Assembly: GCA_036013505.1 (NCBI GenBank)
Contig: CP107851.1
Location: 3,224,001 to 3,288,000, forward strand
Direction: 5' to 3'
Origin: Streptomyces sp. NBC_00510
GTDB taxonomy: Bacteria; Actinomycetota; Actinomycetes; Streptomycetales; Streptomycetaceae
Length of the DNA: 64,000 bases
Position 1 is the first letter of the stretch. Each line of letters begins with the position of its first letter. The notes beneath the pieces are model-generated. The model saw nothing but the letters and a program-made list of their open reading frames with translations, did not search any database and was not told the origin of the DNA. The position numbers were made by a program, and so were the translations under genes. Below, in pieces: positions 18,186 to 63,329 of the stretch.

Positions 18186-19781
18186 CTAGCCGTCGAGGCG
18201 GAGTCCGGCGACCGCGTTGTCGAAGACCGCCCGGTAGGAGCCCCATCGGTCCGACGGAGCGGAGAGGTAGACCGTGAACTCCCGCTCCCCGGGCTGCCCG
18301 AAGCCGAGGTCGACGGCCCGGAAGTCCCGGGCCGTCCCCTTGAAGGTGAACTCCCATACGGCGGCGGGCCGCCCGCGCCAGCGGGTGCTCTGCATCCGCA
18401 GCCGCTCGTAGCCCTCCAGGTCGGGGACCATCTGCTCCTCGACGTCCTCGAAGTGCTGCAGCGGGCTGGGGCCCGCGAAGTCGAGCGCGGCGACCCGCAG
18501 GCCCACCAGCCCCGTCGGGTCGACGTAGACGAACTGCCGCCCGTCGTCGCTCACCTGGCGCTTCCAGCCGTCCGGCACGGGGACGGAGAAGCCGCGGTCC
18601 CGCTCCGCGACGAGGTGGTAGCCGTCCGGGACAGGGGGCGGTGTGTACGAGGGTGCCGGCGACGCGGAAGGGCCGGCCGCGGCGGAGGCGGAGGGCGTGC
18701 CCGGCGTGGTCACCGCGGGCGGGGACGAGGGCGAGGTCGCCGTGCCGTGGTCCCGGTCGCCGAAGTGCGGGACGGCGTACACGACCCCGCCGGCGAGGGC
18801 GGGCACCAGGGCGGCGGCGGTCCACAGCGGGGCGCGGCGGCGCCGGGGGCGCGGCAAGCGGACGGGGGCGGTCGTGGTGCCGCTGCTCCGGGGGCGCACG
18901 GCAGGGGCCGGCCCGATCGGGGATACGAGGCCGTCCCGCGACGCGTTCGCGGTCTCGGTCTCGGTCTCGGTGGCGCTCGCCCGCAGCATCCGCTCGGCGT
19001 CCGCCGCCGACAGACGCCGCTCCGGCTCCCGCACCAGCAACCCCGCGATGACCGGCCCCAACGGCCCCGCCAGACCCGCCACCGGCACCTCATCGGTGGC
19101 GATCGCGTACGCCGTCTCGATCGCCGTGTCCCGGCGGAACGGCGAACGCCCCTCCACCGCCTGGAACAACGTCGCCCCCAACGCCCACAGATCCGCCTCC
19201 GGACCCGGAGCACCACCGGTCAGCCGCTCCGGAGCCAGGAAATCGATCGAACCGATCAACTCACCCGTCCGCGTCAGCGTCGACGTCCCCGAAGCCTGCG
19301 CGATCCCGAAATCGGTCAGCACCACCCGCCCCGACTCCGACAACAGCACATTGCCCGGCTTCACATCCCGGTGCAGCACCCCCGCCGCATGCGCCGCACG
19401 CAGCGCCGCCACCATCCCCCGGCCGATCCGCGCCGCCTCCCCCGGCCCCACCGGACCCCGCTCCTTCAGCAGATCACCCAAGGTCGTCGACGGCACGTAC
19501 TCCATCACGATCGTCGGCAGACCCTCGTCATCCACCACGTCGTGCACCACCACGACATTGGGATGACTGATCCGCGCCGCACTGCGCGCCTCCCGCCGGG
19601 TCCGCTCGAACAACGTCTCCAGCTCGTCGTCCTCCAGGTGGACCTGGGGGTGAAGGCGCTTGACCGCCACCGCACGGCCCAGCAGCTCGTCCATGGCCCG
19701 CCAGACCGTGCCCATGCCGCCACGGCCTATCCGCTCCACCAGCCGGTATCTCCCGGCCACCAGGCGTCCGAGCTCGGACAT
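18186..19781 (-). CDS. Receptor-type serine/threonine protein kinase (PknB/Hanks family)
   Basis: A 531-residue kinase. The N-terminal catalytic domain (about 12-270) has the glycine loop RIGRGGMGTVW, the lysine in AVAVKRL, HRDVKPGNVL, TDFGIA and APERL. A Pro/Arg-rich stretch, one membrane helix (about 345-365) and a C-terminal extracellular region follow. That region has strands such as GYHLVAERDRGFSVPVPDGW. It should phosphorylate Ser/Thr of cytosolic proteins in response to an unknown outside signal. The ATG at 19781 has AAGGAG 9 nt upstream; the one at 19802 would place that site inside the gene. The catalytic part has strand composition unlike its flanks. Confidence 0.88.
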   Translation of the reverse strand: MSELGRLVAGRYRLVERIGRGGMGTVWRAMDELLGRAVAVKRLHPQVHLEDDELETLFERTRREARSAARISHPNVVVVHDVVDDEGLPTIVMEYVPSTTLGDLLKERGPVGPGEAARIGRGMVAALRAAHAAGVLHRDVKPGNVLLSESGRVVLTDFGIAQASGTSTLTRTGELIGSIDFLAPERLTGGAPGPEADLWALGATLFQAVEGRSPFRRDTAIETAYAIATDEVPVAGLAGPLGPVIAGLLVREPERRLSAADAERMLRASATETETETANASRDGLVSPIGPAPAVRPRSSGTTTAPVRLPRPRRRRAPLWTAAALVPALAGGVVYAVPHFGDRDHGTATSPSSPPAVTTPGTPSASAAAGPSASPAPSYTPPPVPDGYHLVAERDRGFSVPVPDGWKRQVSDDGRQFVYVDPTGLVGLRVAALDFAGPSPLQHFEDVEEQMVPDLEGYERLRMQSTRWRGRPAAVWEFTFKGTARDFRAVDLGFGQPGEREFTVYLSAPSDRWGSYRAVFDNAVAGLRLDG

Positions 19782-19832
19782 CGCGCGATTCTCCTTGGTC
19801 ATCCGTTGACGGGTCTCCTCGGCCGGCCGGGC

Positions 19833-47618: not shown

Positions 47619-47749
47619 GCGGGGCCTCCCTTCGTACGGGGTGCGCCCTGGGACGAGTGTTCCCCGTGGGGCGGGCCGTCACGTCCGAAATCCGGACGCG
47701 GCAGGACGGCGCTGGCCGCCGCGCCGCCGGGCCTGGCACTATCGCGGGG

Positions 47750-48733
47750 ATGGAGTTCCCCCGTATCGGCAGACGCAGGGCCGTGCAGGCCGTGCTGGCG
47801 GTGGCGGCGGCGGTCGCGCTGCTGCTGTGGTGGGTGCTGCCCTCCGACGGGCCGTCGTACCCGAAGGACCGGGTCGACTTCGCCACCGGTGTGCGCAACG
47901 GCGTGTACGACACGTACGGGAAGCGGCTCCAGCCCTACCTGCACACGGACCTGCCCGGGGTGCCGGTGCGCCTGGTGCGGTCCGAGGGGTCCGTGGACAA
48001 CGTCCGGCGGGTCGCGACCGGCAAGGCCGATTTCGCGATCGCCGCGGCCGACGCCGTCGCCGACTACCACGGCCCGGGCGCGGGGCGGCTGCGTGCCTGC
48101 GCCCGGCTGTACGACGACTACGTGCAGCTCGTGGTGCCCGCCGACTCGCCCGTGAGGTCGGCGAAGGACCTGCGCGGGCTGCGGGTGGGGATCGGCCAGC
48201 CCAGCTCCGGGGTGAACCTGATAGCGCAGCGGCTGCTCGAGGCGGCCGACCTCGGGGAACCGGGCGACGTGCGGCGCCGGACGGTCGGCATCGACCGGGC
48301 GCCGGAGATGCTGCGCCGGGGGAAGCTGGACGCGTTCTTCTGGTCGGGCGGACTGCCGACCAAGACCGTCGCGAACCTGGCGGAGACCACCGACGTGAAG
48401 CTGGTGCAGCTCGGCGACCTGGTGGCCCGGCTGCACGCCGAGAGCGACGAGTCGACGTACTACCGGCAGGCGGTCATGCCGGCGGACGCGTACCCCATGG
48501 TCCAGGGCGGCCGCGCGGTGCAGACGATCGCCGTGGCCAACCTGCTGATCACCACGGACCGGACGGACACCGGGCTGGTGGACCGCCTCACCCGCACGGT
48601 GATCGACAGCCGTGACCGGATCGGTCAGGAGGTGCACGCCGCCCAGCTGATGGACCTGCGGACGGCGGTCTTCACCGACCCGTTGCGGCTGCACGACGGC
48701 GCCGAGCGCTACTACCGGTCCGTCAAGCCCTAG
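47750..48733 (+). CDS. TAXI-family (TRAP-type) solute-binding protein, membrane-anchored
   Basis: A 327-residue protein with an N-terminal uncleaved-looking helix (about 11-28, AVLAVAAAVALLLWWVLP) and a TAXI-type binding domain. The domain shows FATGVRNGVYDTYGKRL, DFAIAAADAV, GIGQPSSGVNLIAQRLLEAA and LDAFFWSGGLPTKT. TAXI proteins usually feed TRAP permeases such as glutamate or carboxylate importers, but no TRAP permease is next to it. The receptor kinase gene follows 124 nt downstream in the same direction, so it may serve as a sensor subunit. The ATG has GGGG very close, which is poor spacing. Confidence 0.78.
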   Translation: MEFPRIGRRRAVQAVLAVAAAVALLLWWVLPSDGPSYPKDRVDFATGVRNGVYDTYGKRLQPYLHTDLPGVPVRLVRSEGSVDNVRRVATGKADFAIAAADAVADYHGPGAGRLRACARLYDDYVQLVVPADSPVRSAKDLRGLRVGIGQPSSGVNLIAQRLLEAADLGEPGDVRRRTVGIDRAPEMLRRGKLDAFFWSGGLPTKTVANLAETTDVKLVQLGDLVARLHAESDESTYYRQAVMPADAYPMVQGGRAVQTIAVANLLITTDRTDTGLVDRLTRTVIDSRDRIGQEVHAAQLMDLRTAVFTDPLRLHDGAERYYRSVKP

Positions 48734-48857: not shown

Positions 48858-50702
48858 ATGAGTTCTGGGGGGATGCCGCACACCCTCGTCGACGGCCGCT
48901 ACGAGCTGCGCCGGCAGTTGGGGCGCGGTGGCATGGGCGTGGTGTGGGAGGCCTACGACAACCGGCTCAGCCGTCAGGTCGCCGTCAAGGAGCTGCTGTT
49001 CCGGGGCGCGCTGGACCCGGAGACGCAGGCCCAGTGGGTGGAGCGGGCGCGCCGGGAGGCGCAGGCCATCGCCCGGATCGGGCATGAGCACGTGGTCGCC
49101 GTGCACGACGTGATCGAGGCCGACGGCCAGGTCTGGATCGTCATGGAGCAGGTCAACCCGCACTCCCTGGCGGACCAGTTGCGCGAGCAGGGCCGGATCC
49201 CGGCGCTGCAGGCGGCGCGGATCGGCCTGGAGGTGCTGCGCGGGCTGCGCGCGGTGCACGCGGCCGGGGTGCTGCACCGCGACGTGAAACCGCACAACAT
49301 CCTGTTCCGCCGGGACGGGCGGGCGGTGCTCATGGACTTCGGGATCGCGACCTTCGAGGGCGCGGCCCAGGTGACGCGGGTGCACGAGACCGTCGGCACC
49401 CCGCAGTACCTGGCACCGGAGCTGGCCAACCGGCTGGCGCCCACGCCCGCCGCCGACCTGTGGTCGCTGGGCGTCACGCTCTACGAGATGGTCGAGGGCC
49501 GGCCCCCCTTCCGCGGCCCGACGCCGTACGAGGTGCTGGAGGCCGTCCGCACGGCCGAGGTGCCGCCGACGGCGCACGCGGGGCCGCTGCGCCCGCTGAT
49601 CGACGGGCTGCTGGTCAAGGAGCCGGGGGCACGGCTGTCGGCGGAGCGCACCGAGCAGTTGCTGCAGCACGTGGCGCAGGAGACCCCGCAGTTCCCGGTC
49701 GGCGTCTACCCGGACTACGACCCGGACGCCACGCGGACGGACGGCGGCGCCGCGCCCCCGTCGCACCGGACGGAGCCCGATGCCCCCGCGGTGGCGGAGC
49801 CGGCACGGGAACCCGGGGGGCGCACGTCCCTGCGCCGGTGGTACACGCTCGCGGCGGGCGGGGTCGCGCTCGCGGTCCTGGCCGCTGCCGGGTGGTTCGC
49901 CGTCGACCGGCTGGGGGACGACGGCCCCGACCTCTCCTCCTCGCCGACCTACCGGACGGCGCGTGACCGCGGCTACCTCGTGGTCGGCGTCAAGAAGGAC
50001 CAGCCGGGCCTCAGTGAGGCCTCCAGCACCGCCAAGGACGGCTACGAAGGGTTCGACATCGACCTGGCGAGGGCCATCGCCCGGCATCTGGGCTTCGACA
50101 AGGTGCAGTTCACGGTCGTGGACACCCAGTCGCGCGAGTACTTCCTGCGCGCCGGGTACGTCGACTTCATAGTGGCGAGCTACTCCATCACGGAGGAACG
50201 CAAGAGGTCGGTCGACTTCGCGGGCCCCTACTACCAGGCCGGCCAGGACTTCCTCGTCCGCAAGGACGCCCCCGTCCACAGCGTGCAGGACCTGTTCGGC
50301 CGTCATGTCTGCACCGTCACCGACTCGACGCCCGCCGAACGGCTCCGCAAGGAGTACCCGCAGATAAGGACCGAGCAGCAGACCTCGTACGGGCTGTGCG
50401 TCAACCAGCTGCTGGCGGGGAAGGTCGACGCCGTCTCCACCGACGACATCATCCTGGCCGGTTACCGCGCCCAGCACACCGGGCAACTGCGGCTGCTGGG
50501 GGTCCCCTTCGGGACCGAGGAGTACGGCGTGGGGCTGGCCCAGAACGAGCCCGAGCTGAAGCACGCCATATGCGACGCCATCAAGGACGAGATCTCCTCC
50601 GGGGCCTGGCGCGCCTCGTACGTCAAGCACCTCAAGCCGCTGGCCTCCCAGGAGGTGGCGGACCAGCGGCCGAGGCTGGACGAGATGAGCGAGTGCGACT
50701 AG
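48858..50702 (+). CDS. Transmembrane Ser/Thr kinase fused to an extracellular glutamate-type ABC binding domain
   Basis: A 614-residue fusion. Residues about 15-275 are a Hanks kinase: [10 protein letters not shown] (22-31), Lys44, HRDVKPHN (His140, Asp142), DFG with Asp160. A Pro/Thr linker and one membrane helix (about 329-349) follow. Residues about 365-600 are a family-3 solute-binding domain very close in pattern to the GluB of this window: [46 protein letters not shown], and two cysteines in the same places. It should sense an amino acid outside and phosphorylate cytosolic targets. The ATG at 48858 has GGGGG upstream. Confidence 0.92.
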
Positions 50703-50745: not shown

Positions 50746-52527
50746 TCAGGACAGGGCGAACGTGGTGACCACGGCGGCGTGGTCGGAGGGCCAGGCGTTG
50801 CCCGCCACGTCCGGTTCGGGGCGGGGCTCCCCGGTGACCAGGGTGGTGGAGTCCAGCACCCGCAGGCCCCGCCCGGCGTACAGGACGTAGTCGATCCGGT
50901 CCTGCGGCTCGGGCTCGGGGGTGACGGGTGACCAGGTGGTGCCGGGCTCGCGCACGGGGTCCGGGTGGGCCTCGCGGTAGGAGTCGCGCAGTCCGGCGGC
51001 CTCGGCGGCGAGGGTGACCGGCCAGGGCACGGGTCCGTACCCGCCGTGCAGGGGCGCCGCCTCGGCGGTCCAGTCCAGGTGGGAGGGGACGTTGAAGTCG
51101 CCGACGAGGACGACCGGGGTGGTGTCGCGGGCGGCGAGGTCGTCGGCCATGTCGTGCAGGATGTCCCGGATCTGGTCCAGGCGTCCCGAGGCCGCCTCGT
51201 GCTCGACGAGCACCTCGACCGGCTGCCGGTCGTGGAGGGCGTCGTAGGGGCCGTACGGGGTGTAGTTCAGGTGCGCGCTCCACAGCGTGAGGTCGTGGCC
51301 CTCGTCGAGCCGGACGGTGGCGCCGAGGCCGCCGTAGAACGGGCTCGCGGGCAGGCCGTGACGGGAGACGATCGGGTAGCGGCTGATGACGCCGAGGTTG
51401 TCGCCCGCCTGGTGGTGGTCCCAGCCCAGTGCCTCGGCCAGTTCCTTGGCGGAGTGCGTCCGCGTCTCCTGCAGGCCGACGACGTCCACGTCGGCTTCCA
51501 GCAGCACGCGCAACTGCTTGTCCCGGTGGTCGTCGACGCGGGTGCCGCCGAGCCACAGGTTCCAGCTCATGACGCGCAGCTCGCGCACGACGGGTTCGCC
51601 CGCCGCGACGACCGGCACACGCACGGTGACGGTGGCGGAGCGCCCGTCGGCGTCCGTGGCGGTGACGGCGACCTCCACGTCGCCGGCTGCGTCGGGGGTG
51701 CCGGTGACGGTGCCGTCGGCGGAGACCCGCGCCCAGCCGGGGCCCGCGGTCCCGGCGTACGTGACGGGGGCGCCGCGCAGGAGCCCGGCGACGGTGGCGC
51801 GGAACGGCTCGCCGACGCGGGCGCGGCGGCTGGTGAAGGCGGGCACGAGGAAGGACGGCGGCCGCGCGACCAGGGCCCGCAGCACGGAGACGTCGGCCCG
51901 TTCCAGGCTGCCGAGCACCGCGCGTCCGGCGCCGGGGGCGATGGGCGCCAGGGAGGGCACGGCCAGCACGCGGCAGCCGGCGGCCTCGGCGGAGGCGACA
52001 CCGGTCGGGGTGTCCTCGACGGCCACGCACGCGCCGGGGTCCACGCCGAGGGCGTGGGCGGCGGCGAGGTAGGGGTCGGGGGCGGGCTTGGTGCGGGGGG
52101 TGTCGTCGGCGGTCAGGGATACCGCGAAGCGCTCGCGGCCCAGCACCGCCAGCACGATGTCCACGACCTCGCGCGGGGACGCCGAGACCAGGGCGATGGG
52201 GATCTCGTGCCGGGCGAGTTCGTCCAGCAGCTCCAGCGCGCCGGGGCGGGGCACCGTGCGGGCGCGGACCCGCTCGGCGAACTCCCGGTGCAGGAGGGCG
52301 GCCAGTTCCTCGGCGCCGGCCGCCGTCCCGGTCGTGGTCACCAGGTGGGTGGCGGTGTGCTCGACGGCGCGGCCGAGGACCTCGGTCACGTCCGCGTCGC
52401 CGAGCACGTGTCCCAGCCCGGCGGCCACCTCGGCGACCGCCTCCCACCACAGCTCCTCGGTGTCGACGAGCGTGCCGTCCATGTCGAACAGGACGGCCTG
52501 GAGCGGGTGGTGCGGTGGGTGGGTCAC
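50746..52527 (-). CDS. Fusion: HAD phosphatase - Ig-like domain - endonuclease/exonuclease/phosphatase domain
   Basis: A 593-residue three-part protein. Residues about 10-215 are a beta-phosphoglucomutase-like HAD hydrolase (FDMDGTLVDTEELWW, VSASPREVV, KPAPDPYLAAAH, VEDTPTGVASA). About 225-315 is an Ig-like or cadherin-like beta domain (VTGTPDAAGDVEVAVTATD). About 320-590 is an EEP-fold enzyme (MSWNLWLGG, GLQETRTHS, VLVGDFNVPSHLDW, WPSDHAAVV). There is no signal peptide. It is the last gene of the ABC operon (49 nt after the ATPase gene), so a phosphate-containing substrate is likely; which one is unknown. Confidence 0.85.
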   Translation of the reverse strand: MTHPPHHPLQAVLFDMDGTLVDTEELWWEAVAEVAAGLGHVLGDADVTEVLGRAVEHTATHLVTTTGTAAGAEELAALLHREFAERVRARTVPRPGALELLDELARHEIPIALVSASPREVVDIVLAVLGRERFAVSLTADDTPRTKPAPDPYLAAAHALGVDPGACVAVEDTPTGVASAEAAGCRVLAVPSLAPIAPGAGRAVLGSLERADVSVLRALVARPPSFLVPAFTSRRARVGEPFRATVAGLLRGAPVTYAGTAGPGWARVSADGTVTGTPDAAGDVEVAVTATDADGRSATVTVRVPVVAAGEPVVRELRVMSWNLWLGGTRVDDHRDKQLRVLLEADVDVVGLQETRTHSAKELAEALGWDHHQAGDNLGVISRYPIVSRHGLPASPFYGGLGATVRLDEGHDLTLWSAHLNYTPYGPYDALHDRQPVEVLVEHEAASGRLDQIRDILHDMADDLAARDTTPVVLVGDFNVPSHLDWTAEAAPLHGGYGPVPWPVTLAAEAAGLRDSYREAHPDPVREPGTTWSPVTPEPEPQDRIDYVLYAGRGLRVLDSTTLVTGEPRPEPDVAGNAWPSDHAAVVTTFALS

Positions 52528-56842: not shown

Positions 56843-57610
56843 GTGGCGGCGCGGCACGAGGAGATCGCCGAGGAGCTCCGGCGGGCCATCGACGACGAGG
56901 AGTACACGGTCGGTGCCCTGCTCCCGCCGGAGACCGAACTGGCCGCCCGGTACGGCGTCTCCCGTGGCACGGTGCGCCAGGCCGTGGCCGCGCTGACCGC
57001 GGAGGGGCTGATCGGCTCCCGTCAGGGCGCCCGCCGCGTCGTGCTGGCCAGCCGGCGCAGCCAGAGCTTCGCGGAGCTGCGCAGCTTCGCCCAGTGGGCG
57101 CGGGCCATGGGCCGCGCCGCCTCCGGCACCGTGGTCCGCACCGAGACCCGGCCGGCCACCGCTGAGGACGCCACGCGCCTGCACCTGCGCACGGGCGCGG
57201 ACGTGCTGTACGTGCTGCGGGTGCGCGGACTGGACGGTGAGCACGTCCTGGTGGAGCGCACGGTCTACGCCGACTGGATCGCCCCCGCGGTGCTGCGCAT
57301 AGAGCCGGACTGCGAGTCGGTCACCCAGCGGCTGTACGACGACACGGGCCTGGTCTTCGCCTACGGGGAGCACCTGATCGACGCGGTCGCGGCCGGCACC
57401 CGGGACAGCGAACTGCTGGGCGTGCGGCGCGGCAGCCCGCTGCTGCGGGTGCGCCGGGTCACCACCACGCAGAAGGGCCGCCCGGTGGAGTGGTCGGACG
57501 ACCGCTACCGCTCGGACGCCGTCAACTTCAGCATCCACAACTCGATCGGCTCCAACCCGCTGGCCCGCCAGGCCGGCCCCGGGCTCAGGGAGCCGTACGC
57601 GGCACCGTGA
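56843..57610 (+). CDS. GntR/HutC-family transcriptional regulator
   Basis: A 255-residue regulator. The N-terminal winged helix (about 5-70) reads YTVGALLPPETELAARYGVSRGTVRQAVAALTAEGLI. A C-terminal UTRA domain (about 90-235) binds the effector, probably a phosphorylated small molecule. It diverges from the ABC operon, with a perfect palindrome between them, and likely represses it until the substrate is present. GTG at 56843 has GAAGGGGG upstream. Its last 26 nt overlap the end of the convergent gluK. Confidence 0.9.
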   Translation: MAARHEEIAEELRRAIDDEEYTVGALLPPETELAARYGVSRGTVRQAVAALTAEGLIGSRQGARRVVLASRRSQSFAELRSFAQWARAMGRAASGTVVRTETRPATAEDATRLHLRTGADVLYVLRVRGLDGEHVLVERTVYADWIAPAVLRIEPDCESVTQRLYDDTGLVFAYGEHLIDAVAAGTRDSELLGVRRGSPLLRVRRVTTTQKGRPVEWSDDRYRSDAVNFSIHNSIGSNPLARQAGPGLREPYAAP

Positions 57611-58973
57611 GGGTCACCACCAGTCCGTGCGGCTCGTTCGGCGCGTACGCGATGCTGCCGCCGCCCTGCGTCAGCAGCACCCGCGCGATGGACAGGCCGA
57701 GGCCCGAGCCGTCGACGTTCTGGTGACGCGGGCTGCGCCAGAAACGGTCGCCGATGCGGGCGAGTTCGTCCTCGGTGAGACCCGGGCCGCCGTCGGCGAC
57801 GGTCACGTCGATCGCGCCGGGGCGGCCGCGCAGTTCGGTGGTGACCCGCACGCGTTCACCGTCCGGGGTGAACTTCACGGCGTTGTCGATCACGGCGTCG
57901 AGGGCGCTGGACAGCGCCACCGGGTCGGCCCAGCCGGTCACGGCGGCGGCGCCCCCGTAGGAGAGCTCCACGCCGTCGCGCTCGGCGACCGGCCGCCACG
58001 CCTCGACGCGTTCCGCGGCGAGGGCGGCGATGTCGGTGAGGGCGAGGTTGGCCTCCGCGTGCTCGGCGGTGGCGAGGCCCAGCAGGTCGTCCAGGACCGA
58101 GGCGAGGCGCTTGCCCTCCTCCCGGACCGAGGCGATCTCCTCGTGCCCGTCGGGCAGTTCCAGGCCCAGCAGCTCGATCCGCAGCAGCAGTGCGGACAGC
58201 GGGTTGCGCAACTGGTGGGAGGCGTCGGCGACGAAGGCCCGCTGCTGGTCGAGCACCTCCTCGACGTTGTCGGCCATCTCGTTGAACGAGCGCGCCAGGC
58301 GCCGCAGTTCCGGCGGCCCCCCGGACACCGCCACACGGGACTTCATCCGGCCGGTGGCGATGTCGTGGGTGACCCGGTCCAGCACCCGGACCGGGCGCAG
58401 CACCCAGCCGGTGAGCCGGAAGGCGGCCATGACGGCCACGATCATGGCGGCCAGCTCACCGGCCGCGAGCAGCAGCCAGCCGCGCAGGATGCGCGAGCGC
58501 ATCGCGCCGGTCGGCGAGTCGGTGAGCACGACCGCGACGACGTCGCCGTCCCGGACGACCGGGGAGGCGACCGACAGGGAGCGGTGCTGCCAGGGCCAGA
58601 TCTGCTTGGGGTCGTGGCTGCGCCGCCCGGCCAGGGCCTCGCTGTACGCGGTGAAGGCCTCACCGCCGGTGGGCAGCGTCCAGCCCTTCGGGGCCGAGGC
58701 GATCGGCTCGCCGTCGCGGTCGAAGACGCCGGCCCGGATCCCGTACACGTAGTGGTACTGCAGCAGCTCCGCCCGCAGCGTCTTCACCCGTTCGCCGCTG
58801 CCGTCGGTGCTGACGTACTGGGCCAGCGCGGCGAAGCGCGCGGTGTCGTCGATGCGGTCGACGACGACGCGCTGCTGCTGGGCGGCGGCCAGGCTGGCGG
58901 CGAGCGGGAAGCCGAGGGCCAGCAGCACACCGGCCATCAGCACGATGAGCAGCGGCAGCAGCCGGGTGCGCAC
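57585..58973 (-). CDS. gluK: Sensor histidine kinase, GluK-type
   Basis: A 462-residue membrane sensor. Helix 1 (about 6-28), an extracellular sensor loop (about 30-163), helix 2 (about 164-186), HAMP (about 188-240), the phospho-accepting His253 in ADASHQLRNPLSALLLR, and the ATPase domain (NAVKFTPDG, DGGPGLTEDEL, GSGLGLSIARVL). In S. coelicolor the GluR/GluK pair beside gluABCD responds to glutamate and controls its uptake. The GTG at 58973 uses an AGGAGG that overlaps the gluR stop codon, so translation is coupled. The name rests on position and organisation. Confidence 0.85.
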   Translation of the reverse strand: MRTRLLPLLIVLMAGVLLALGFPLAASLAAAQQQRVVVDRIDDTARFAALAQYVSTDGSGERVKTLRAELLQYHYVYGIRAGVFDRDGEPIASAPKGWTLPTGGEAFTAYSEALAGRRSHDPKQIWPWQHRSLSVASPVVRDGDVVAVVLTDSPTGAMRSRILRGWLLLAAGELAAMIVAVMAAFRLTGWVLRPVRVLDRVTHDIATGRMKSRVAVSGGPPELRRLARSFNEMADNVEEVLDQQRAFVADASHQLRNPLSALLLRIELLGLELPDGHEEIASVREEGKRLASVLDDLLGLATAEHAEANLALTDIAALAAERVEAWRPVAERDGVELSYGGAAAVTGWADPVALSSALDAVIDNAVKFTPDGERVRVTTELRGRPGAIDVTVADGGPGLTEDELARIGDRFWRSPRHQNVDGSGLGLSIARVLLTQGGGSIAYAPNEPHGLVVTLTVPRTAP

Positions 58974-58987
58974 GGAGGAACGGCCTC

Positions 58988-59698
58988 CTAGCCGGAGGGC
59001 ACGACGAGGCGGTAGCCGACCCCGCGCACGGTCTCGATCAGGGAGGGCAGGCGCAGCTTGGACCGCAGGGACGCCACATGCACCTCAAGGGTGCGCCCGG
59101 TCCCCTCCCAACTCGTCCGCCACACCTCGCTGATGATCTGTTCACGGCGGAAGACCACACCGGGCCGCTGCGCGAGCATCGCGAGCAGGTCGAACTCCTT
59201 GCGGGTGAGCGCGACCGGCTCGTCGCCGACGGTGACCTTGCGGGTCTCCAGCTCCACACGGACCGGGCCGAGCCCGATGACGCCGCCCGCGGCCTCCGTG
59301 CCCTCCGTCTCGGGCCCGGCGGGCGCCTCCTGCGCCTTGCGGCGGCAGACGGCGTGGATGCGGGCGAGCAGCTCACCGGTGTCGTACGGCTTCACCACGT
59401 AGTCGTCGGCGCCGAGGTTGAGGCCGTGGATGCGGGACCGCACGTCGGCACGCGCGGTCACCATGATCACGGGGATGGCGGTGCGCAGCCGGATGCGGCT
59501 GCACACCTCGAAGCCGTCCTGGTCGGGCAGGCCGAGGTCGAGCAGGACCACGTCGAAACCGGGCCCGTGGTCGGGCAGCAGCGCGTGCAGCGCCTCCTCG
59601 CCGCTTCGGGCGTGGGTGACCTGCAGCCCGTGCTTGGCCAGCACGGCCGACAGCGCGGCGGCGACCCGGTGGTCGTCCTCCACGAGCAGCAGTCTCAT
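58988..59698 (-). CDS. gluR: OmpR-family response regulator, GluR-type
   Basis: A 236-residue regulator. The receiver domain (1-115) has acidic MRLLLVEDDH, phospho-acceptor Asp54 in VVLLDLGLP, Thr in VMVTARAD and Lys in DYVVKPYD. The C-terminal winged helix (about 145-236) reads LTRKEFDLLAML and then GRTLEVHVASLRSKL. It should bind the divergent gluA promoter region. ATG at 59698 has GGGAGGT upstream, and the frame extends to 59785 without a better site. gluK follows in the same operon. Confidence 0.87.
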   Translation of the reverse strand: MRLLLVEDDHRVAAALSAVLAKHGLQVTHARSGEEALHALLPDHGPGFDVVLLDLGLPDQDGFEVCSRIRLRTAIPVIMVTARADVRSRIHGLNLGADDYVVKPYDTGELLARIHAVCRRKAQEAPAGPETEGTEAAGGVIGLGPVRVELETRKVTVGDEPVALTRKEFDLLAMLAQRPGVVFRREQIISEVWRTSWEGTGRTLEVHVASLRSKLRLPSLIETVRGVGYRLVVPSG

Positions 59699-59988
59699 CC
59701 GTTCACCTCCCGCGGTCCGGCCCTTCACGCCCCCGCAATCATGCTCTACCACCGAATACACGCCGATGGGCCACGTGCGCGTCAAGCGCAGCCCGGTCCT
59801 GCGGGACGACTGTTACGGAGCCGGTACGCTGCACAACCGGCCGGGCTCACCCACAGTGCCGGATTTGTGCCAGCCAGTGACCGGATCGTGATGCTCAAGT
59901 TCCCCTCAGATGTGCTGACTCGGTTTGCCAAGCGTCAATAGGGTGATCGCCAAGGTCTGGTCAACCGACGAGGATGGAGCACACGCCG
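59699..59988. promoter_or_regulatory. gluR-gluA divergent regulatory region
   Basis: These 290 nt must contain the promoters of gluRK and gluABCD and the likely GluR site. Repeats of the type CAGTG and CCGGAT lie near 59850-59890, but I cannot point to a convincing operator. Confidence 0.5.
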
Positions 59989-60765
59989 ATGACCGAAGTG
60001 CCGGTGACCGAGGACGCCGTTACGGCGCCCGACGACCTGGTCGTACTGAAGGACGTGAACAAGCACTTCGGCGCGCTGCACGTGCTCCAGGACATCAACC
60101 TCAGCATCGGCCGCGGCGAGGTCGTGGTCGTCATCGGCCCCTCGGGGTCGGGCAAGTCGACGCTGTGCCGGGCCGTCAACCGCCTGGAGACGATCGATTC
60201 GGGCGCGATCACGATCGACGGGAAGCCGCTGCCCCAGGAGGGCAGGGAGCTGGCCCGGCTGCGCGCCGACGTCGGCATGGTCTTCCAGTCGTTCAACCTC
60301 TTCGCGCACAAGACGGTCCTGGAGAACGTCACGCTCGGCCAGGTCAAGGTGCGCAAGGCCGGCAAGAAGGCCGCCGAGGAGCGGGCCCGCGCGCTGCTGG
60401 ACCGGGTGGGCGTGGGCAGCCAGGCGGACAAGTACCCGGCGCAGCTCTCCGGGGGCCAGCAGCAGCGCGTGGCGATCGCCCGGGCGCTGGCGATGGAGCC
60501 GAAGGTCATGCTCTTCGACGAGCCGACCTCGGCGCTCGACCCGGAGATGATCAACGAGGTGCTGGAGGTCATGCAGCAGCTCGCGCGCGACGGGATGACG
60601 ATGGTAGTCGTCACCCATGAGATGGGCTTCGCCCGGTCCGCCGCCAATCGCGTGGTCTTCATGGCGGACGGGCGGATCGTCGAGCAGGCGACGCCCGACC
60701 AGTTCTTCAGCAATCCCCGGAGCGACCGGGCCAAGGACTTCCTTTCGAAGATCCTTCACCACTGA
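59989..60765 (+). CDS. gluA: Glutamate ABC importer ATPase
   Basis: A 258-residue polar-amino-acid ATPase. Walker A is GPSGSGKST (about 50-58), the Q-loop is in [15 protein letters not shown], signature [17 protein letters not shown], Walker [15 protein letters not shown] and switch His in [10 protein letters not shown]. It should drive glutamate uptake through GluC and GluD. The ATG at 59989 has GGAG 9 nt upstream and matches the known GluA N-terminus (MTEV); ATG at 59974 is less likely. gluB follows after 39 nt. Confidence 0.93.
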
Positions 60766-60804
60766 GAGCGACACCGACGGTTCGCCGACCTAAGGATGAT
60801 CACG

Positions 60805-61725
60805 ATGAGCTTCCGTACCACTGCCGCCGCCGCTCTGGCCGTCCTGGCGCTGACCGCCACCGCGACCGCGTGCGGCAAGGAGGGCTCGCCCTCCTCCTCC
60901 AGCACCCCTGACAAGGGCTCCAGCAGCGCGGCCGCCGCCGAACTGCCCACCTACACCGTCAAGACCGGTGTGGACCTGGCCGGCTCCAAGACCTGGGACC
61001 GGATCAAGAAGAACGGCAAGCTCGTCATCGGCGTCAAGGCCGACCAGCCGAACCTGGGCTACCAGGACCCCGGCAGCAAGAAGTACTCCGGCTTCGACAT
61101 CGAGATCGCCAAGATGATCGCCGCCGACCTCGGCTTCGACGAGAGCAAGATCGAGTACAAGACGATCCAGTCGGCCAACCGCGAGACCGCCCTCTCCGGC
61201 GGCCAGGTCGACTACTACGTCGGCACGTACACCATCAACGACGAGCGCAAGAAGTCCGTCTCCTTCGCCGGCCCGTACTTCGTCGCGGGCCAGGACCTCC
61301 TGGTCAAGAAGGGCAGCGGCATCAAGAGCACGGGCGACCTCAAGGGCAAGAAGGTCTGCTCCGCGACCGGTTCGACCTCCATCCAGCGCATCAAGGAGGG
61401 CAACTACGGCGCCGAGCCCGTCGAGTACGACTCCTACTCTCTGTGCGTGCAGAACCTGGCCTCCGGCCAGGTCGACGCGGTGACCACCGACGACGCCATC
61501 CTCAAGGGCTACGCGGCCCAGGACCCGGCCAACCTCGAGGTCGTCGGCAAGCCGTTCTCCGAGGAGCCCTACGGCGTGGGCCTGCTCAAGGACGACACCG
61601 TCCTGCAGGAGGCCATCACCAACGCGCTGAAGAACCACGAGGACAACGGCGACTGGAAGAAGGCGTACGACGCCACGCTCGGCAAGTCCGGCGTGAGCGC
61701 CGAGATCCCGCAGCTCCAGTCCTGA
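60805..61725 (+). CDS. gluB: Glutamate-binding lipoprotein
   Basis: A 306-residue binding protein. The signal ends at TATAC (Cys23), so it is probably a lipoprotein. Ser-rich linker, then a family-3 solute-binding domain (GFDIEIAKMIAADLGFDESK, SVSFAGPYFVAGQD, VDAVTTDDAILKGY). Two cysteines (KKVCSATGS and YSLCVQNL) likely form a disulfide and recur in the receptor kinase. It captures glutamate outside and hands it to GluC/GluD. The ATG at 60805 has AAGGA 8 nt upstream. Two hairpins follow, probably limiting read-through. Confidence 0.93.
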   Translation: MSFRTTAAAALAVLALTATATACGKEGSPSSSSTPDKGSSSAAAAELPTYTVKTGVDLAGSKTWDRIKKNGKLVIGVKADQPNLGYQDPGSKKYSGFDIEIAKMIAADLGFDESKIEYKTIQSANRETALSGGQVDYYVGTYTINDERKKSVSFAGPYFVAGQDLLVKKGSGIKSTGDLKGKKVCSATGSTSIQRIKEGNYGAEPVEYDSYSLCVQNLASGQVDAVTTDDAILKGYAAQDPANLEVVGKPFSEEPYGVGLLKDDTVLQEAITNALKNHEDNGDWKKAYDATLGKSGVSAEIPQLQS

Positions 61726-61731
61726 AGCGGG

Positions 61732-61757
61732 CGGGACCCGGCCTGACCCGGGTCCCG
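61732..61757 (+). terminator. First hairpin between gluB and gluC
   Basis: A 10-bp perfect stem (CGGGACCCGG with CCGGGTCCCG) and a 6-nt loop lie 6 nt after the gluB stop. It is probably a partial terminator that keeps gluB expression above gluC and gluD. Confidence 0.55.
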
Positions 61758-61787
61758 TCCCCCCTCCCCGGCACAGCCCGAGCCTGA

Positions 61788-61819
61788 TGCGCCGGCGGCC
61801 AGGAGCGGCCGTCGGCGCA
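61788..61819 (+). terminator. Second hairpin between gluB and gluC
   Basis: TGCGCCGGCGGCC and GGCCGTCGGCGCA form a 13-bp stem with one G-T pair and a 6-nt loop, ending 17 nt before the gluC start. Confidence 0.5.
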
Positions 61820-61836
61820 CCCCTTTCGGAGAATCG

Positions 61837-62484
61837 ATGAACGTACTGCTGGACAACTTCGCGCTCTTCCGCGAGGGGTTCCTCGGCACGGTCGAGCTGA
61901 CCGCGCTCAGCGGGGCGATCGCCCTGGTGCTCGGGGTGATCATGGCCGCATTCCGGGTGTCCCCGGTGCCGCCGCTGCGTGCCTTCGGCACGGCGTGGGT
62001 GACCCTGCTGCGCAACACCCCGCTGACCCTGCTCTTCTTCATCGCGGTGCTGGTGCTGCCCCGGCTGGGGCTGAACACCTGGAGCTTCTTCCGGCTCGCC
62101 GTGCTCGCCCTGAGCTGCTACACCTCGGCGTTCATCTGCGAGGCCGTGCGCTCGGGCATCAACACCGTCCCGCTCGGGCAGGCCGAGGCCGCCCGGAGCC
62201 TGGGGATGACCTTCACCCAGACCCTGCGGCTGATCATCCTGCCGCAGGCCACCCGGACCGTGCTGCCGCCCATCGGCAGCCTGCTGATCGCGCTCACCAA
62301 GAACTCCGCGATCGCCGGTGGGTTCAGCGTCACCGAGCTGTTCAGCGTGCAGAAGGCGCTCGGTGAGAAGGGCTACAGCATCTTCGCGACCTTCGTCTGG
62401 GTGGCACTCGCCTACCTGGTCCTCACCCTCTTCATCAGCGCGGTCTTCCGACTGCTCGAGAGCCGGCTGGCGGTGGCCCGATGA
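61837..62484 (+). CDS. gluC: Glutamate ABC importer permease
   Basis: A 215-residue polar-amino-acid permease with about five helices. It has NTPLTLLFFI near helix 2 and the ATPase-contact loop QAEAARSLGMTFTQTLRLIILPQA. CGGAGA lies upstream of the ATG. Its stop overlaps the gluD ATG (ATGA), so the two subunits are made together. Confidence 0.93.
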   Translation: MNVLLDNFALFREGFLGTVELTALSGAIALVLGVIMAAFRVSPVPPLRAFGTAWVTLLRNTPLTLLFFIAVLVLPRLGLNTWSFFRLAVLALSCYTSAFICEAVRSGINTVPLGQAEAARSLGMTFTQTLRLIILPQATRTVLPPIGSLLIALTKNSAIAGGFSVTELFSVQKALGEKGYSIFATFVWVALAYLVLTLFISAVFRLLESRLAVAR

Positions 62485-63329
62485 GCGCGAACGTCCTCTT
62501 CGACGCGCCCGGCCCCCGGGCCAGGATCCGCAACCGGGTCGTCGGCGCGGCCGCCGCCCTGGTGATCCTCGCACTGCTGTGGTTCGTCCACCGGCGGCTC
62601 GACGAGTCGGGGCAGTTCGCCTCGTACCTCTGGGAGCCCTTCCAGTACACCGACATCCAGCAGCGCATCGTCGACGGTCTGCTCGCCACGCTGAAGGCGT
62701 TCGCGCTGGCCGCCGTCTTCTCGCTGGTGCTGGGCGCGGCGCTGGCGGCGGGCCGGCTGTCGGACCACGCCCCGGTGCGGTGGGTGGCGACGGTCGTCGT
62801 GGAGTTCTTCCGCGCGATGCCGCTGCTGATCATGATCTTCGCGCTGTACGTAGGCGTCTTCACCTCGGCCCCGCTGTGGGCGCTGGTGATCGGCCTGACC
62901 CTCTACAACGGCTCGGTGCAGGCCGAGATCTTCCGGGCCGGCATCAACGCCGTACCGAAGGGCCAGAGCGAGGCCGCGTACGCGATCGGCCTGCGCAAGA
63001 CGCAGGTCATGGTCTTCGTGCTGATCCCGCAGGCGGTCCGGGCGATGTTGCCCTCGATCATCAGCCAGCTGGTGGTCACCTTGAAGGACACCTCGCTCGG
63101 CTACATCATCACGTACGAGGAGCTGCTCTACACCGGCAACCTCATCGCGAAGAACAGCGCGGGCTTCCCCTTCATCCCGATGATCATCATCGTGGCGCCG
63201 ATCTACATCCTGATGTGCCTGGCGCTCAGCGCGCTGGCCAACTGGATCGAGCGTCGCGGCCGCCGCAGCCGCAAGGGCGCGCCGCCGAAGGCGGGCGACA
63301 TCAAGGCGGTGGAGGCCGCCGCGGAGTGA
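62481..63329 (+). CDS. gluD: Glutamate ABC importer permease
   Basis: A 282-residue permease, the partner of GluC. It has a longer N-terminus with a first helix (AAAALVILALLWFVH), then FFRAMPLLIMIFALY, the ATPase-contact loop SEAAYAIGLRKTQVMVFVLIPQA, and a Lys/Arg-rich C-terminal tail. It ends the gluABCD operon. No strong terminator is visible directly after it. Confidence 0.93.
   Translation: MSANVLFDAPGPRARIRNRVVGAAAALVILALLWFVHRRLDESGQFASYLWEPFQYTDIQQRIVDGLLATLKAFALAAVFSLVLGAALAAGRLSDHAPVRWVATVVVEFFRAMPLLIMIFALYVGVFTSAPLWALVIGLTLYNGSVQAEIFRAGINAVPKGQSEAAYAIGLRKTQVMVFVLIPQAVRAMLPSIISQLVVTLKDTSLGYIITYEELLYTGNLIAKNSAGFPFIPMIIIVAPIYILMCLALSALANWIERRGRRSRKGAPPKAGDIKAVEAAAE

Follow-up and report, generated by a model that had tools for sequence, protein, structure and literature searches.

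Which stimuli activate bacterial Ser/Thr kinases is a question that the field has yet to answer (PMC6069109). What, then, activates the Ser/Thr kinase encoded in the glutamate locus of the soil actinobacterium Streptomyces sp. NBC_00510? We analyzed a 64,000-nucleotide stretch of this genome, referred to here as the window, in which the receptor kinase gene occupies positions 48858 to 50702 on the plus strand. Re-derivation of the open reading frame gave a product of 614 amino acids with the stop codon within these coordinates and no internal stops, and a G-rich, ribosome-binding-like stretch lies 5' of the ATG; the coordinates, length, and motifs listed in the initial annotation were all correct. 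Full-length orthologs (88 to 63% identity) retain the frame and both halves of the protein. Thus, the receptor kinase is neither a chance open reading frame nor an assembly fusion.

The N-terminal half carries a kinase domain (aa 15 to 271; 48900 to 49670, plus strand) that matched PF00069 (Pkinase) with 174.5 bits and an E value of 3.7e-51. All kinase motifs were found, namely, GRGGMG at 22, VAVKE with K44, HRD at 140 to 142, DFG at 160 to 162, and APE at 186 to 188; by these motifs, the protein is a Hanks-type Ser/Thr kinase, and phosphotransfer is predicted. The nearest solved kinase is M. tuberculosis PknA, to which the kinase half is approximately 40% identical, whereas the sensor, a solute-binding protein (SBP), sets the receptor kinase apart from PknA/PknB-type kinases. 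Pfam detected no PASTA repeats, and NF033483 matched the kinase part only (232 bits, cut-off 450). A single transmembrane helix at about aa 326 to 352 (49833 to 49913, plus strand) was placed from the full-length model and the only hydrophobic stretch of the protein, which starts at aa 330 (20 residues). Beyond it lies a predicted extracytoplasmic SBP_bac_3 sensor (aa 374 to 592; 49977 to 50633, plus strand; PF00497, 86.1 bits, E value of 2.2e-24). Both Pfam scores are far over their cut-offs. In the full-length model, one helix (aa 326 to 352) links the two halves and the cytoplasmic linker is of low confidence; the overall pTM was 0.49, and therefore the mutual placement of the two halves was left unused. 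Altogether, the Pfam domains, motifs, and modelled helix bear out the single-chain layout of kinase, membrane helix, and sensor that had been read from the sequence.

Modelled alone with AlphaFold2, the sensor reached a pLDDT of 93.9 and a pTM of 0.90. Foldseek and VIA-align identified 5EYF, a glutamate-bound SBP from Enterococcus faecium, as its closest solved structure (E value of 7e-25; Z of 32.3; rmsd of 1.7 across 238 residues), and M. tuberculosis GlnH (6H1U and 6H2T) scored a Z of about 30. Many amino-acid SBPs with other specificities lie only a few Z units from the best match, so the ligand is not given by the fold alone; the GlnH paper itself describes family-3 SBP specificity as hard to predict (PMC6069109). 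We compared the ligand pocket by alignment. GlnH contacts the backbone groups of aspartate via Ser164, Arg169, and Asp250 and its side chain via Arg147, Trp232, and Thr162 (PMC6069109), and the respective counterparts in the sensor are Ser443, Arg448, and Asp529 and Arg426, Tyr511, and Ser441. With a two-lobed fold and S443, R448, and D529 for the ligand backbone, the sensor is a family-3 SBP_bac_3 protein. Arg426 (50133 to 50135, plus strand), the equivalent of the GlnH arginine that contacts the side-chain carboxylate (PMC6069109), is followed by the stretches holding Ser441, Ser443, and Arg448 (50178 to 50201, plus strand) and Tyr511 and Asp529 (50388 to 50444, plus strand).

R426, R448, and D529 are invariant in 23 of 23 kinase sensors, while S441, S443, and Y511 are retained or conservatively exchanged in nearly all of them. 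The side-chain arginine at the R426 position has been described as typical for Asp/Glu binders (PMC6069109), and the same position is Ile in AncQR. Relative to the Asp/Glu side-chain set of Arg147, Thr162, and Trp232 (PMC6069109), the sensor keeps the Arg and has Ser for Thr and Tyr for Trp; GluB and the glutamate-bound 5EYF likewise have Tyr where GlnH has Trp232. Because the pocket arginines and Asp are invariant and the Tyr is as in GluB and 5EYF, an acidic amino acid is predicted as the ligand. Comparison of a predicted structure with GluB and GlnH, which the initial annotation had proposed as a check, thus yielded a confident sensor model and corresponding pocket residues in the alignment; a pocket lacking amino-acid-binding residues, the finding that the annotation had named as fatal to its reading, was not seen, since the GlnH-equivalent residues are there, the acidic-side-chain arginine included. 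Alternatively, Glu/Asp may not be the main ligand, and the sensor may bind some other amino acid, such as Gln, Asn, Cys, or a D-amino acid, with the kinase reporting another envelope signal. Cys-, Arg-, and Gln-binding proteins do occur among the fold neighbors, Ser and Tyr do replace GlnH Thr162 and Trp232, and position 161 varies between groups (Ala in most kinase sensors, Gly in GluB, and Lys in GlnH). Nonetheless, we consider this alternative unlikely, given the invariant Arg147 equivalent, the placement of the sensor clade with GluB of glutamate operons, and the glutamate-bound best structural match.

The nearest non-kinase kin of the sensor in the genome, by sequence comparison, is GluB (60796 to 61725, plus strand), with 44% identity and an E value of about 1e-58. 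The motifs GFDI, FAGPYxxAGQD, and VDAVxTDD are present in both, and both share the pocket arginines and a cysteine pair; GluB differs in being a standalone transport protein without a kinase. The shared pair, Cys485 (50310 to 50312) and Cys514 (50397 to 50399; the pair spans 50310 to 50399, plus strand), was found in 23 of 23 kinase sensors, in 15 of 15 GluB proteins, and in both GlnH proteins (that of M. tuberculosis and that of the same genome). Because GlnH has both residues, the pair marks the actinobacterial GluB/GlnH group rather than GluB alone and is ruled out as proof of GluB descent. Thus, the GluB pattern described by the initial annotation is present, motifs and both cysteines alike, but its cysteines are not specific to GluB. 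A second pair, Cys572 (50571 to 50573) and Cys613 (50694 to 50696; together 50571 to 50696, plus strand), occurs in 22 and 20 of the 23 kinase sensors, respectively, and in none of the 15 GluB proteins, and GlnH has neither. This pair may form a disulfide tying down the C-terminal tail, which would suit an extracytoplasmic location.

Phylogenetic trees placed the kinase sensors of Streptomycetaceae in one clade with an ultrafast bootstrap of 99 and an SH-aLRT of 98 (20 rows, three long-branch rows having been dropped). This clade groups with GluB proteins, away from GlnH, as had been proposed for the sensor, and a separate tree of the corresponding kinase halves shows a parallel cluster. A topology joining the sensor to GlnH was 24 log units worse with a p-AU of 0.062, by which descent of the kinase sensor from GlnH is disfavored but not formally rejected. 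The fusion of kinase and sensor is old and conserved. A kinase-SBP protein of 39% identity in another genome of the same genus (L018/L051; G004) is placed apart from the main clade whether the tree is built from sensors or from kinases; it may be a separate, independent fusion, though its branches are long.

The gene order in the window is dapF, miaA, miaB, TAXI, the receptor kinase, an insert, gluK, gluR, and gluABCD. The GluK-like sensor histidine kinase (57585 to 58973, minus strand) was assigned by its HisKA, HAMP, and HATPase_c domains and by synteny, the GluR-like response regulator (58988 to 59785, minus strand) by domain search and synteny, and the gluABCD glutamate uptake operon (59974 to 63329, plus strand) by synteny. 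The same placement of the receptor kinase, with TAXI on one side and gluKR-gluABCD on the other, recurs within the genus of the window and also in Wenjunlia, Streptacidiphilus, Peterkaempfera, Embleya, Yinghuangia, and Mangrovactinospora. The insert 3' of the receptor kinase (a HAD/endonuclease-like gene, an ABC importer, and a GntR gene) also occurs in L037, the closest relative; the remaining syntenic relatives lack it and have the kinase between TAXI and gluK. The first gene of the insert (50746 to 52527, minus strand) encodes 593 aa with apparently a HAD-type phosphatase start (FDMDGTLVD) and an endonuclease/exonuclease/phosphatase-like end, and among the syntenic loci compared, it was found only in the window and L037.

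This location also bears on a transport-coupled reading, according to which the sensor retains the docking surface of GluB and touches the GluCD permease, and transporter occupancy or flux, not the free ligand, is what the kinase reads. The GluB-like position of the sensor in the tree and the conserved proximity of the gene to gluABCD are in keeping with such coupling, but four further genomes of the family (G056, G085, G112, and G004) have their relatives away from the glu locus, and we regard the idea as rather improbable.

The receptor kinase was found in at least 23 of 101 family (Streptomycetaceae) genomes and in at least 11 of 35 in the genus. Among 20 further TAXI loci inspected, the kinase was present in 1 (L105) and missing from the TAXI locus in 19; because L105 did hold the kinase, both counts are lower bounds. 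The kinase-sensor fusion holds in all syntenic orthologs, and because most of the family is without it, it is accessory. In a weak search of 247 class genomes with five candidates scored per genome, no relatives outside Streptomycetaceae were detected at an E value of 1e-80. The most economical reading is that the gene inserted into the glutamate locus long ago and was later lost more than once; it may alternatively have been gained by transfer between genera. A natural comparison set is provided by close relatives in which the receptor kinase is all that the glutamate locus lacks.

Upstream, the TAXI-family solute-binding protein (47657 to 48733, plus strand; TIGR02122, 233.9 bits) has an N-terminal hydrophobic anchor, and neither the TRAP membrane component DctM nor a GltS partner for it was detected in the genome. 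TAXI adjoins gluK-gluR in several actinobacterial families; even Lentzea and Actinomycetospora have it next to GluK, with the kinase missing. TAXI has the look of an orphan sensory component belonging to the GluKR locus. A role as the dedicated partner of the kinase is not favored, as TAXI occurs in 100 of 101 family genomes versus at least 23 of 101 for the kinase. Glutamate binding by TAXI is not supported either, as the key Gln of VcGluP appears as Ala when read off the TtGluBP alignment.

Single-chain SBP-kinases were already noted in 2018, with MSMEG_1200/StpK7 of M. smegmatis as an example (PMC6069109). Like the receptor kinase, StpK7 (NF052427) joins an N-terminal Ser/Thr kinase to a C-terminal family-3 SBP; however, its gene lies in a BREX-like island (PMC13355554), whereas the receptor kinase lies in a glutamate locus. 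Deletion of StpK7 alters phage susceptibility through MSMEG_1198 (PMC13355554). One could thus imagine that the receptor kinase regulates a local or envelope stress or defense program, amino-acid sensing being secondary or lost. The architecture is shared and both halves match the StpK7 profile, but the score was 190.3 bits against a cut-off of 900 and the conserved neighbors are glutamate genes, which makes a StpK7-like role highly unlikely; the receptor kinase is not a StpK7 equivalog. It is a distinct member of a known SBP-kinase architecture, one whose predicted ligand is better defined and whose genomic position is telling. Our literature search, which covered few subscription journals, turned up no work devoted to this subfamily.

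In mycobacteria, a pathway from an SBP to a kinase is established for Asp/Glu through GlnH and PknG (PMC6069109). The likeness is that an acidic amino-acid SBP controls a Ser/Thr kinase, as predicted for the receptor kinase, and that the pocket residues correspond; the difference is that GlnH-GlnX-PknG comprises three proteins and that PknG is a soluble rubredoxin-TPR kinase, the rubredoxin and PknG TPR domains being absent from the receptor kinase by Pfam. PknG itself is present in the same genome (PknG_TPR, 294 bits; PknG_rubred, 104 bits), in an operon with GlnH and a GlnX-like protein (L036; G000:C1:6230500-6242500) adjoined by a PP2C phosphatase and a VWA-like protein. The GlnX candidate had no Pfam match and was assigned from position and hydrophobic layout only. 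Because this operon persists in the same genome, the fused kinase is an extra route and not a substitute, and replacement of PknG is ruled out. The contrast with separate GlnH, GlnX, and PknG proteins drawn by the initial annotation therefore stands insofar as sensor and kinase are here one chain, but not in its implication of replacement.

On these data, the protein is probably a Ser/Thr kinase that spans the membrane once and serves as a receptor for acidic amino acids (glutamate and/or aspartate) outside the cell. By analogy with established Venus-flytrap families, glutamate or aspartate would bring the two sensor lobes together on the outer side of the membrane, and lobe closure would rearrange receptor dimers or the juxtamembrane segment and be passed on through the single helix. 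This rearrangement would switch trans-autophosphorylation of the activation loop and, in turn, phosphorylation of cytoplasmic targets, in the direction of either activation or inhibition. GlnR and a GarA/OdhI-type protein are, by analogy, candidates only for such targets: GlnR Ser/Thr phosphorylation goes up with nitrogen (review PMC9739842), and OdhI has been reported as a substrate of several kinases (PMC2784874). The receptor kinase would act beside GluK-GluR and GlnH-GlnX-PknG, replacing neither. GluK-GluR (SCO5779/78) shares the locus but comprises a histidine kinase with another type of sensor, and GluK is reported as a direct glutamate sensor (review PMC9739842); on the basis of gene order, action in parallel to GluK is plausible. 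GluK, GlnH-PknG, and the receptor kinase would give each such organism three separate candidate routes for sensing acidic amino acids.

Because the kinase and a sensor with a predictable ligand are one chain, the question of the activating signal reduces to one binding and one phosphorylation assay; the signal is directly testable because the acidic amino-acid pocket is conserved and the gene lies beside glutamate uptake genes. A more speculative proposal, which we hold to be doubtful, is an envelope glutamate-sensing hub, in which a captured GluB would serve as a glutamate-gated receptor kinase that, with the transporterless TAXI and GluK, Ser/Thr-phosphorylates GluR or the GluABCD importer. 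If true, it would link uptake, two-component signaling, and Ser/Thr signaling.

The window also contains a further membrane Ser/Thr kinase of 538 aa (18186 to 19802, minus strand). A kinase cluster near 4.34 Mb in the same genome (L004) includes a kinase half almost identical to that of the 538-aa protein, a similarity that suggests a recent duplication.
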